Positions 5,715 through 11,692 of a stretch of 64,000 nt of DNA are shown here, piece after piece. The stretch is from Zunongwangia sp. HGR-M22. Lineage in GTDB: Bacteria; Bacteroidota; Bacteroidia; Flavobacteriales; Flavobacteriaceae. The position numbers and the translations under genes are program-made. A model generated the notes under the pieces. The model searched no databases and was not told the origin of the DNA. It saw only the letters and a list, made by a program, of their open reading frames with translations. The stretch is taken from NCBI RefSeq assembly GCF_027594425.1, contig NZ_CP115159.1, forward strand, positions 310,001-374,000. The letters run 5' to 3'. The stretch's first letter is position 1, and each line of letters begins with the position of its first letter.

Positions 5715-6941
5715 TTAATCTTCAGACTCTGTTCCTAAAGAAGGGAAATCATATCCTGTCCAAGCGAATACAGAAGTATCAGCTCCTGTGTTGCCATCTT
5801 CTACTGTAATAGTAGCACCAACATTTTTAATAGCAGTAGCATCGATACCTCCTAAAGCAGATACACTAATTGATGTTTCGCTAGATCCGTTTCCGGAGCC
5901 ATCTTCTAGATCGATAAAATCAGATGCAGTACCTGCATTTTCATCTTCTGCTGCAAAAATCGCAACAACAGCATTAGTTATAGTCGCAGAACTTCCTCTT
6001 CTAATTTTAATCATATCAGACATATTTGCGGTAGACTGGTGGTAAAGAGTAAGACCATCGATAGTTGGGTTTGATCTTGGAGAAGCGTCGTTATTACTCT
6101 CATTGCTATCTGCTTCAATACCTCTAGGATCTTCAGTTACATCGTTAAAACCAAACTCCCTAATTCCATAGAAGTTTTTCCCATTACCTGTCCATCCATG
6201 TGTCCAATCAAACCAATCGTCTTTGGCGTTTACAACAAGTGCATTGGTGACATTAACTGTACCTCCAAACCATTCGAGACCATCATCATCACCGTATCTT
6301 ACCATGATGTTGCTAATAGAAGTTTCGCTACCTACACCATAGAATGTAATAGCATTAAATTCTTGCGTTCCACCGATTCTTGCACCGGTATATTCTACGA
6401 TCATGTAGTCAATAATTCCTGAGTTATCTTCATTATTATCACCACCATAAGTTATTTCCGCAACTTCAGTTTGAGCAAACTCACCGGTGTTAATATTTGC
6501 GTACCCGGCTAAAATAAGTCCTCCCCAGTCTCCTGAACGTGGGTTCTCTGCTGCTGAAGTAATCGTGATAGGTTCTTCAGCTGTTCCCTGTGCATCTATT
6601 TTTGCACCTTGTAGAATGGCCATGTAAACTTCAGTGCCTCCTGCTTGAGCTTTTATAGTAACGCCAGGCTCTATGGTTAATGTGGCGCCATCTACTACTC
6701 TCAATGCTCCTGTAAGCATCCATTCAGAATCGGCTGTAATAGTTACATCAGCACGAACTTCACCTTTAAGATCTTCGGGATCTAAATCTGGATCATCCTG
6801 TGAATCGATAACATCGTCTTTTTGTTCGACTACGCCTCCATCGTCATCTGTACCTGGAGTTACATTATCGTCGTCATCAGAGCAACTTCCTAATAAAGCT
6901 GCAATGGTCAAAATCGATAGAAATAATTTTGATTTTTTCAT
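5715..6941 (-). CDS. Surface-exposed lipoprotein with predicted beta-helix
   Basis: 408 residues. The N-terminus ends in LLGSC with lipid-site Cys20, followed at once by SDDDDN. An acidic stretch at this point is the lipoprotein surface-export signal known in Flavobacteriia. The rest is rich in Asp, Gly, Asn and Thr with short repeated strand/turn units (ITITSAAENPRSGDWGGLIL, ISNIMVRYGDDDGLEWFGG, VTNALVVNAKDDWFDW), consistent with a right-handed parallel beta-helix. Similar proteins are often mislabelled as transporters. It lies 53 bp downstream of the TonB receptor gene on the same strand, and I infer that it is that receptor's surface partner, in the manner of SusD. The ligand is unknown; phosphate-containing compounds are a guess from the regulatory neighbours. 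Confidence 0.72.
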   Translation of the reverse strand: MKKSKLFLSILTIAALLGSCSDDDDNVTPGTDDDGGVVEQKDDVIDSQDDPDLDPEDLKGEVRADVTITADSEWMLTGALRVVDGATLTIEPGVTIKAQAGGTEVYMAILQGAKIDAQGTAEEPITITSAAENPRSGDWGGLILAGYANINTGEFAQTEVAEITYGGDNNEDNSGIIDYMIVEYTGARIGGTQEFNAITFYGVGSETSISNIMVRYGDDDGLEWFGGTVNVTNALVVNAKDDWFDWTHGWTGNGKNFYGIREFGFNDVTEDPRGIEADSNESNNDASPRSNPTIDGLTLYHQSTANMSDMIKIRRGSSATITNAVVAIFAAEDENAGTASDFIDLEDGSGNGSSETSISVSALGGIDATAIKNVGATITVEDGNTGADTSVFAWTGYDFPSLGTESED

Positions 6942-9748: not shown

Positions 9749-9770
9749 CCCTTTGTTTGATTCTTGAGTG

Positions 9771-9778
9771 CAAATTAA
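9771..9778 (-). promoter_or_regulatory. Possible -7 element of TonB receptor promoter
   Basis: Minus-strand TTAATTTG is one mismatch from TAnnTTTG, 23 bp before the ATG at 9748. No -33 TTG is present at the expected distance; the TTAACG repeats occupy that place, as would suit an activator-dependent promoter. Confidence 0.35.
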
Positions 9779-9800
9779 AGGGGGGTATGTAAAGCTTGTG

Positions 9801-9850
9801 TTAACGGCAAATTAACGCTTTGTCATTTTAGTGTTATGTAAAGGTTACTA
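9801..9850. promoter_or_regulatory. 11-bp-periodic TTAACG repeat array, Pho-box-like
   Basis: TTAACG occurs at 9801-9806 and again at 9812-9817, an 11-bp period. At the same period follow TCATTT (9823), TTATGT (9834) and TTACTA (9845), which are weaker. PhoB/PhoP-type regulators bind tandem 6-7-bp direct repeats with an 11-bp period (TTAACA-like in Bacillus subtilis). The array sits between a PhoB/PhoR-like pair and the TonB receptor. Binding is inferred, not shown. Confidence 0.45.
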
Positions 9851-9864
9851 AATAAATGCTTAAA

Positions 9865-9893
9865 TTGTAGGTTGAAATTAATAATTACATTTA
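9865..9893 (+). promoter_or_regulatory. Promoter of the two-component operon
   Basis: TTG at 9865-9867, an 18-bp gap, then TACATTTA at 9886-9893 (7 of 8 to TAnnTTTG). The start codon of the regulator gene is at 9924, giving a leader of about 25 nt. Confidence 0.55.
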
Positions 9894-9923
9894 CCCCGTA
9901 TTTGTTAAAATCTATACAATAAA

Positions 9924-10607
9924 ATGAAGAAAAAAGACATCCGTATCCTTCTAGTAGACGATGAGCCAGATATTCTTGAGATTGTTGGCTATAACCTTTC
10001 TGCTGAAGGATATCAGGTAATTACAGCCGATAATGGCGCAGATGCGGTAAAAGTGGCAAAAAAGAAAACTCCGCATCTTATTATACTAGATGTAATGATG
10101 CCGGGTATGGATGGTATTGAAGCTTGTGAGCAAATGAGAAAAATCCCTGAGTTAGACGAAACAATTATAACTTTTCTAACGGCCAGGGGTGAGGATTATT
10201 CTCAAATGGCAGGTTTTGATGCCGGAGCTGATGATTATATTACTAAACCAATAAAGCCAAAAGTTTTAATTAGTAAAGTGAAAGCTTTATTAAGAAGGTT
10301 TAGAGATGAAGAAGCAACTTCTAACATTGTAAAGGTTGGGGAGATTGTTATTAATAGAGATGAATATAAAGTAGTGAGAAATAAAGAGGAGATGATTTTG
10401 CCTCGTAAAGAATTTGAATTACTTTCATTATTAGCTTCCAAACCGGGTAAGGTTTTTAAAAGAGAAGATATTTTAGACAAAGTTTGGGGTAACGAAGTTG
10501 TTGTAGGAGGACGTACTATAGATGTTCATATTCGTAAACTAAGAGAAAAAATTGGAGACGACAGCTTTAAAACCGTAAAAGGCGTTGGTTATAAGTTCGT
10601 AGTTTAA
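9924..10607 (+). CDS. OmpR/PhoB-family response regulator
   Basis: 227 residues: receiver domain at 5-125 and winged-helix DNA-binding domain at about 135-227. Acidic pocket Asp12/Asp13, phospho-acceptor Asp56 (LIILDVMMPG), Thr86 (FLTARGED) and Lys108 (YITKPIKP) are all present, so it should be phosphorylated. The C-terminal half shows the PhoB pattern (LPRKEFELLSLLASKPGKVF, VHIRKLREKIGD, VKGVGYKFVV). It overlaps the histidine kinase gene as TAATG. The LTARGED and GADDYITKP blocks are close to PhoB. With the 11-bp repeat array upstream, a phosphate-responsive role is my best guess, but family members with other inputs cannot be excluded. Confidence 0.88.
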   Translation: MKKKDIRILLVDDEPDILEIVGYNLSAEGYQVITADNGADAVKVAKKKTPHLIILDVMMPGMDGIEACEQMRKIPELDETIITFLTARGEDYSQMAGFDAGADDYITKPIKPKVLISKVKALLRRFRDEEATSNIVKVGEIVINRDEYKVVRNKEEMILPRKEFELLSLLASKPGKVFKREDILDKVWGNEVVVGGRTIDVHIRKLREKIGDDSFKTVKGVGYKFVV

Positions 10608-11692
10608 TGGCAAAAAAATTTAAGAAGTCCTACACATTCGCAATAAAGACCTCTTTATATCTAACTTTATTTTTAAGCGGTCTCTGGGCTGCTTTTTCTT
10701 ATTTATCAGGAGACTTTCACTGGTGGGCTTTACTTGGTTTTATAATTGTTAGTTATACTTTTTCTTTTTTTATAATTCAGTATCGTGTAGAAAATTTTAT
10801 TTACAAAAGGATAAAAAAGATCTACGATGATGTCTCTTTATTGGATTCTTCAACCTTAAGGCCTAATCAGGTGACAACAGATATGGCAACCTTAACTAAA
10901 GAAGTAGAGAAGTTTGCCGAACATAAAAAGCTGGAGATAGAAACATTAAAAGTACGTGAGAATTACCGTAAGGAATTTATGGGAAATGTCTCTCACGAGT
11001 TAAAGACACCACTTTTTACGGTACAGGGATATATTTTAACTTTATTGGACGGGGCAATGAAAGACAAAACGGTGCGAAAAAAATATTTGCAACGTGCCAG
11101 TAAAGGGGTTGAGCGTCTAATCTACATTGTAAAAGATCTTGATATGATCACCAAATTAGAAACTGGTGATTTACATCTTTATATTGAGGACTTTAATATC
11201 GTAGAGCTAATCCAAAATACTTTTGATCTTTTAGAGATGAAAGCGGCCAAGAAGAATATCACGCTTACATTTGATATGCCGTATCGCGAAGCTATTTTCG
11301 TGAAGGCCGATAAAGAGAGAATTCAGCAGATAATTACGAATCTCGTTGTGAACTCAGTTAAATACGGTAAAGAAGGCGGTACAACAGAAATTAGTATAGA
11401 AAACCTGATTAAAAATAAAGTTATCGTTCGGGTAACAGATAATGGTGAAGGAATAGAAAAAGAAAATATTCCTCGTTTATTTGAGCGTTTTTATCGCGTA
11501 GATAAAAGTGGTTCTCGAAAAGAAGGAGGGTCTGGCTTAGGCTTATCTATTGTAAAACATATTATAGAAGCCCACCAGGAAAAAATTTATGTAGAAAGTG
11601 TTTTTGGTGTAGGAAGTGAGTTTTCATTTACGCTCGAAAAGAGTAAAGAGATCCCGAAAAGAGTGATCGAAACGGATACTTCTGAATCCTGA
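10607..11692 (+). CDS. Sensor histidine kinase, PhoR-like
   Basis: 361 residues: two membrane segments (about 12-34 and 40-58) with almost no periplasmic loop, a short linker/coiled coil at 65-120, a HisKA dimerisation helix with His130 (GNVSHELKTP), and an HATPase domain with the N box (NLVVNSVKYG), DNGEGIEKEN, RFYRVDKSGSRKEGG and GSGLGLSIVKHI. With so little outside the membrane it probably senses through the membrane or a partner, as PhoR does with the Pst/PhoU system. No pst or phoU gene is in the window. The last 69 bp overlap the convergent glycosyltransferase gene on the other strand. Confidence 0.88.
   Translation: MAKKFKKSYTFAIKTSLYLTLFLSGLWAAFSYLSGDFHWWALLGFIIVSYTFSFFIIQYRVENFIYKRIKKIYDDVSLLDSSTLRPNQVTTDMATLTKEVEKFAEHKKLEIETLKVRENYRKEFMGNVSHELKTPLFTVQGYILTLLDGAMKDKTVRKKYLQRASKGVERLIYIVKDLDMITKLETGDLHLYIEDFNIVELIQNTFDLLEMKAAKKNITLTFDMPYREAIFVKADKERIQQIITNLVVNSVKYGKEGGTTEISIENLIKNKVIVRVTDNGEGIEKENIPRLFERFYRVDKSGSRKEGGSGLGLSIVKHIIEAHQEKIYVESVFGVGSEFSFTLEKSKEIPKRVIETDTSES

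Follow-up and report, generated by a model that had tools for sequence, protein, structure and literature searches.

The window, that is, the whole stretch of 64,000 nucleotides that was analysed, corresponds to positions 310001-374000 of a single-contig genome of 4.04 Mb. Here a divergent intergenic region (9749-9923) parts the genes of a TonB-dependent receptor and a lipoprotein-like protein from those of a response regulator and a sensor kinase, and it holds an array of short direct repeats. The features are:

5715..6941, minus strand: lipoprotein-like protein of 408 aa, downstream of the receptor, in the position of FII (Fjoh_0546) of F. johnsoniae (PMC8115612)
6995..9748, minus strand: TonB-dependent receptor of 917 aa, divergent from the regulator, placed in the gene order as Fjoh_0545 of F. 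johnsoniae (PMC8115612)
9771..9778, minus strand: -7-like box TTAATTTG (consensus TAnnTTTG) of a putative receptor promoter
9789..9854, no strand given: candidate operator array of six contiguous 11-bp units, read directly from the sequence
9800..9817, plus strand: receptor-proximal pair GTTAACGGCAAATTAACG, which is the exact TTAACG repeat of the earlier note
9833..9847, plus strand: regulator-proximal pair GTTATGTAAAGGTTA, the pair type most widely kept at regulator orthologues
9886..9893, plus strand: -7-like box TACATTTA of a putative regulator promoter
9924..10607, plus strand: PhoB/OmpR-type response regulator of 227 aa with Response_reg and Trans_reg_C domains
10607..11692, plus strand: PhoR/PnpS-like sensor kinase of 361 aa
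11624..12682, minus strand: glycosyltransferase (PF04101), in the position of the phosphate-starvation-induced Fjoh_0541 (PMC8115612)

The top NCBIfam match of the regulator is PhoB TIGR02154 (219.8 bits; cut-off, 296.2), and the PhoB model NF053854 gives 208 bits (cut-off, 270). Since both scores lie below the cut-offs, the regulator is not classed as a curated PhoB; it may work like PhoB despite these scores. Its nearest named relatives belong to the Flavobacteriaceae, the top one being a Salegentibacter MAG (87% identity), and the same genome encodes six other full-length OmpR-type regulators. HisKA and HATPase_c are the only Pfam sensor-kinase domains of the kinase, with no PAS domain recognised by Pfam, and the lipoprotein-like protein has no Pfam or NCBIfam match.

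On the plus strand, the six units of the array start with GTAA (9789), GTTA (9800), ATTA (9811), GTCA (9822), GTTA (9833) and GTTA (9844); in the receptor sense, this reads TAAC-TAAC-TGAC-TAAT-TAAC-TTAC. The exact TTAACG copies at 9801 and 9812, from which the earlier note started, are seen in the sequence, and so are the hexamers that continue at the same 11-bp step (TCATTT at 9823, TTATGT at 9834 and TTACTA at 9845); a further unit on the left, GTAAAG at 9789, goes beyond that description. The 11-bp step of these hexamers was borne out, but not their designation as weaker, as the pair at 9833-9847 is the better conserved one among regulator orthologues. When the 4.04-Mb genome was scanned with a four-copy pattern, the window array ranked best with 1 mismatch of 16, the other matches listed having at least 2.

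For promoter numbering, TAnnTTTG was taken as positions -12 to -5 (PMC9723704), with transcription starts predicted near 9766 for the receptor and near 9898 for the regulator. No -33 TTTG is present at the proper distance from the receptor box TTAATTTG. Instead, the left unit of GTTAACGGCAAATTAACG and the 9789 unit together span the -33 zone, at about -22 to -37 from the predicted start, which agrees with the earlier proposal that the array covers the place where the receptor promoter lacks this box. In relatives, a TTTCTTTG-like box lies at equal distance from the array on the receptor side, and a TATCTTTA-like box stands upstream of the regulator in many of them. Relative to the predicted regulator start, the array extends from about -51 to -110, close to the -50 to -100 estimated before, with its nearest unit at about -51 to -54. 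Thus, like a Pho box, the array occupies the -35/-33 zone of its target at the receptor promoter (start derived from coordinates), whereas at the regulator promoter it sits further upstream than this zone. Some regulators (L142 and L099 among them) have one more upstream pair, ATTA-N7-GTTA, that starts 8 bp past the start of the last GTTA; this pair (19 bp from GTTA to GTTA, a spacing found in 37 of 160 regulator regions) would span the regulator's -33 zone.

Regulator orthologues (E up to 1e-90) are present in 109 of 120 family genomes. The upstream regions of all 109, together with those of the 52 out of 80 named loci that reach 50% identity, make 161 regions, or 160 after removal of one that was too short; some species may recur in both sets, so that 160 is not a number of independent lineages. 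GTTA-N7-GTTA occurs within 200 bp upstream of the regulator in 114/160 regions against 12/160 on the other strand, and shuffled regions had the pair 2.1 times on average and 7 times at most. The GTTA spacings peak at 11 (114 regions), 22 (39), 33 (51), 19 (37), 30 (27) and 31 (28), every other spacing being found 0-12 times. The exact pair is missing in 46/160 regions, and it stands upstream of none of the six full-length regulator paralogues that the own genome encodes (0/6). Of the regulator regions with the proximal pair, 38 have a receptor match in the examined flank, and 21 of these carry TTA at -33 as well as at -22, the two positions further upstream; of the 77 regions lacking such a match, 7 do. 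This difference indicates that the regulator promoter is served by the downstream pair at 9833-9847 and the receptor promoter mainly by the TTAACG pair; we infer that in the window a single array serves both.

The receptor side provides an independent test. Receptor matches (E up to 1e-100) are found in 69 of the 120 genomes; in 18 of these the match neighbours the regulator, in 51 it lies elsewhere. Read in the receptor sense, TAAC-N7-TAAC precedes the receptor in all 18 regulator-linked and in 41 of the 51 unlinked cases (shuffle maximum 3), and a 33-bp TAAC spacing is seen in 40 of the 51 unlinked regions (shuffle maximum 2). Conservation of the repeat upstream of orthologues, the lack of which the earlier note had named as one refuting result, is therefore borne out at regulator genes and at unlinked receptors alike. 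The exact pair is missing in 10/51 unlinked regions, including that of genome G041, which is also without a regulator at the E threshold of 1e-90.

Outside the window's genus, 49 of 67 receptor regions could be anchored; they were chosen for having the pair, so that conservation of units 1-2 is there by construction. Their consensus is TAACATTtAgc TAACntTtTTA TtACaaAtgTT TAAccTnnagt TAACatnancT TTACA, with a TTTCTTTG-like -7 box after it. The four TAAC phases hold 1.1-1.8 bits of information, compared with 0.2-0.6 elsewhere; the 11-bp phase is kept far better than the spacers at many Flavobacteriaceae regulator and receptor promoters. Like a Pho box, the array thus has a conserved half-site in direct repeats at an 11-bp step. 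A weight matrix from the 49 regions scores the window array at 50.4, against -4.5 for the best non-overlapping place, up to 1.5 for overlapping registers and a maximum of 16.1 over 60 simulated windows. A profile of 60 positions built from 45 of the 49 arrays, with the window's genus left out, finds the array in the own genome at 319788-319847 (window 9788-9847, minus strand; 42.4 bits, genome-wide E 3.1e-10), with no second match in the 64-kb window at E up to 10, and thus none upstream of the glycosyltransferase. The second-best match in the own genome is G000:C1:1247525-1247562 (E 0.0097).

Across the family, the profile at E up to 1e-3 matches 64 of 100 genomes, namely 63/91 with the regulator and 1/9 without; at E up to 1 it is uninformative, matching 99/100, and this cut-off was discarded. 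One genome, G048 (82% complete), has a strong profile match (E 5.8e-8) and no regulator at the E threshold of 1e-90. Six of the 30 best profile loci do not lie at a receptor match, and all six stand in front of a gene whose product resembles the 408-aa lipoprotein. The four-copy pattern with up to 1 mismatch occurs 167 times in the 120 genomes against 88 for the control, in 93 genomes against 55. The four-copy array is found in 92/109 genomes with the regulator and 1/11 without. This overall co-occurrence is significant, but it is confounded with genome size; when the comparison is restricted to genomes of at most 2.7 Mb, significance is lost (4/15 vs 1/11, p 0.36).

Repeats of the same type also occur at other genes of relatives, several of them phosphate genes. 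At ten loci selected for arrays, six out of six PiT genes have their own TAAC pair, its near edge 43-53 bp before the gene start (PF01384, for PiT, and PF07396 were confirmed on one example each, the remaining genes being named by eye). The earlier suggestion to look upstream of pst and phoX in relatives gave a divided answer: 3 of 11 PstS regions have the pair (L215, L217 and L218) and 8 of 11 do not, with starts that are estimated and some pstS perhaps inside operons, while none of six PhoX regions has it (PhoX at E up to 1e-60 in 6/120 genomes; starts uncertain). The own genome has no PstS match (TIGR02136; 10/100 family genomes match); by this marker, its kinase and regulator do not qualify as a Pst-coupled PhoR-PhoB system. 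Nor does it have a PhoX match (E up to 1e-60), and its PiT gene (L374) is not preceded by a pair. A YwqK/MORN-like gene, often near OprP and PiT, has an upstream pair in 10 of 10 array-selected loci, and its counterpart in the own genome (L245, about 3782.6-3783.1 kb) has two; its product is likely a new member of the Pho regulon. This product is a small secreted protein of 118-122 aa, and the GTTA pairs stand upstream in the gene's own sense (L354-L363). In another group of loci (L364-L373), arrays lie beside an HD-domain dGTPase-like gene (10/10 by eye; PF01966 checked on one), with a short CarboxypepD_reg-like secreted protein on the other side in 9/10 and a lipoprotein in L372.

In E. coli, Pho boxes replace a missing -35 promoter element, and the window array likewise stands where the upstream element of the receptor promoter is lacking. 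The PhoP box of B. subtilis consists of TTA-rich hexamers in several copies at 11-bp steps. The window array resembles it in its TTA hexamers and in having four or more copies in phase, and differs from it in phylum and promoter type. The E. coli Pho box is made of two 11-nt direct repeats bound head-to-tail, with CTGTCAT as the most conserved part (PMC4415409). With this box the array shares the 11-bp direct repeats, the PhoB-type regulator and a unit TTGTCAT at 9820-9826; it differs in its half-site (GTTA vs TGTCA), its six units, its TAnnTTTG-type promoter and in the main targets seen, an outer-membrane receptor and a lipoprotein.

Closer parallels come from the same phylum. In F. johnsoniae, the PhoBR operon/PUSIV (glycosyltransferase-OprP-PhoR-PhoB / receptor-lipoprotein FII) forms a block that is induced by phosphate depletion, with fold changes of 8.02 for the receptor, 9.91 for FII, 3.06 for PhoB and 5.42 for the glycosyltransferase (PMC8115612, Table 1); the changes of PhoR and OprP were not significant, and phosphate-responsive loci were tightly repressed under N and Fe limitation in this study. 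The window shares the gene order glycosyltransferase, PhoR, PhoB, receptor, lipoprotein, but is without the OprP that stands between glycosyltransferase and PhoR in F. johnsoniae. The available text of PMC8115612 names no operator (0 occurrences each of 'pho box' and 'promoter'). In F. panici, F. potami and F. hibernum (L157-L159), matches to the glycosyltransferase, kinase, regulator, receptor and lipoprotein follow one another in this sequence, and the array profile reaches 19.5-24 bits upstream of the regulator in L156-L160.

Riemerella anatipestifer belongs to the same order as the window organism. Its PhoP was studied by DAP-seq and EMSA and has an ArcA-like motif with TTTAACA as the most conserved part; its targets include its own promoter, where it binds 121-156 bp upstream, and that of a TonB receptor (PMC9603813). 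TTTAACA, compared here by its published description, agrees with the GTTA/TAAC half-sites, although the available text of PMC9603813 does not mention an 11-bp array. B. fragilis PhoB, likewise of the Bacteroidota, binds a pst promoter fragment; it differs in this target, and no binding motif is given in the accessible text ('motif', 0 occurrences; PMC3547664).

Taken together, we consider it highly probable that the array is a shared, divergent operator of the Pho-box type, the mechanism below included, and the site at which phosphate-scavenging genes are switched on. Upon phosphate starvation, the kinase would phosphorylate the regulator, and each 11-bp unit would take up one regulator monomer in a head-to-tail row. 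The pair of units closest to the receptor promoter (-22 to -37) would replace the missing -33 box; from this position, we propose, the bound regulator could hold RNA polymerase and turn on the receptor and the lipoprotein. With its nearest unit about 51-54 bp from the regulator start, the same bound array could also provide positive autoregulation from upstream. In relatives, boxes of this type would serve PiT, an OprP-linked locus, some pst genes and the small secreted MORN-type protein. The operator of a Bacteroidota Pho-type regulon, as the earlier note had put it, thus gains support, as a putative assignment, from the conservation, from the induction in F. johnsoniae (PMC8115612) and from the pairs at phosphate transporters in relatives.

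The signal is where an alternative has most to offer: the array could be the operator of the neighbouring regulator and respond to a signal other than phosphate, of the redox or envelope type, an idea put forward for Riemerella PhoP, whose motif is ArcA-like. That protein is tied to aerotolerance genes and to many promoters, and its authors favour roles in virulence and aerotolerance (PMC9603813); in an earlier paper of these authors, pstS was 8-fold up in the mutant (PMC5399024). The absence of PstS and PhoX matches from the own genome and the sub-cut-off scores with both PhoB models fit such a signal as well. However, phosphate depletion induces the corresponding F. johnsoniae locus, phosphate loci being repressed when N or Fe is limiting (PMC8115612), pairs stand before PiT and some pst genes in relatives, and the Riemerella authors themselves cite induction of phoPR in phosphate starvation (PMC9603813). 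We therefore regard a non-phosphate signal as improbable.

Another protein, be it a further regulator of the OmpR family or a factor specific to the receptor, might bind the array and leave the neighbouring regulator a mere passenger, given that six further full-length OmpR-type regulators are encoded and that binding by the neighbouring one is predicted. Against this speak the 77 regulator regions that keep the proximal pair where the examined flank has no receptor match, the repeat at 41/51 receptors away from the regulator and the 0/6 count at the own paralogues, which make this reading very improbable. A third reading takes the repeats for a chance product of A+T-rich intergenic sequence. 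The exact TTAACG pair is indeed at chance level, with 1 copy found in the genome vs 0.95 expected from base composition, about once per genome, and the window has no surplus of near matches (10 vs a shuffle mean of 7.3); for this reason the proof of the array rests on conservation. Chance or base composition as the origin of the array is ruled out by the shuffles, the phase conservation across genera, the cross-genus profile match and the unlinked loci, leaving this reading a negligible probability.

Returning to the Pho-type operator, the array offers a concrete, searchable candidate for the site through which a large environmental family responds to phosphate. Strongly phosphate-induced outer-membrane proteins of flavobacteria have already been measured, and the literature found does not describe their regulatory site; in the open PMC texts available, no description of this operator in Flavobacteriaceae was found. 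The Pho box as a kind of operator is known; what is new is the putative array in Flavobacteriaceae, well supported by the family-wide comparison that defines it. The operator predicts regulon members genome by genome, and through it phosphate sensing mostly without PstS becomes directly testable. In a wider and more doubtful picture, which we put forward tentatively, the phosphate-starvation circuit of Flavobacteriaceae would be built on the receptor-lipoprotein pair and PiT, not on Pst, and its kinase would be one without a recognised PAS domain; phosphate would be sensed without Pst-PhoU flux, perhaps via the receptor and the lipoprotein, and the six-unit array would be the core operator of a largely Pst-free Pho regulon.

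Within the own genome, simpler patterns were rejected as regulon signatures. Exact TTAACG-N5-TTAACG with up to 1 mismatch has 16 sites vs 53 in the reversed control, and the four-copy pattern with up to 3 mismatches shows no excess (75 vs 110 in the control); of 30 four-copy loci inspected, 18 fall within ORFs, and the remaining 12 include the window array three times, in different registers. Two half-sites are not a sufficient signature either, since GTTANNNWANNGTTA has 24 sites vs 68 in the reversed control. Eleven of the 24 lie inside ORFs of at least 70 aa and 13 outside, one of the latter being the window array. Two other GTTA pairs outside ORFs, which may be more targets or chance, are found at 2510.5 kb (L236), between a lipoprotein-like and an EutB-like gene (named by eye), and at 389.6 kb (L228), between two secreted-protein genes.
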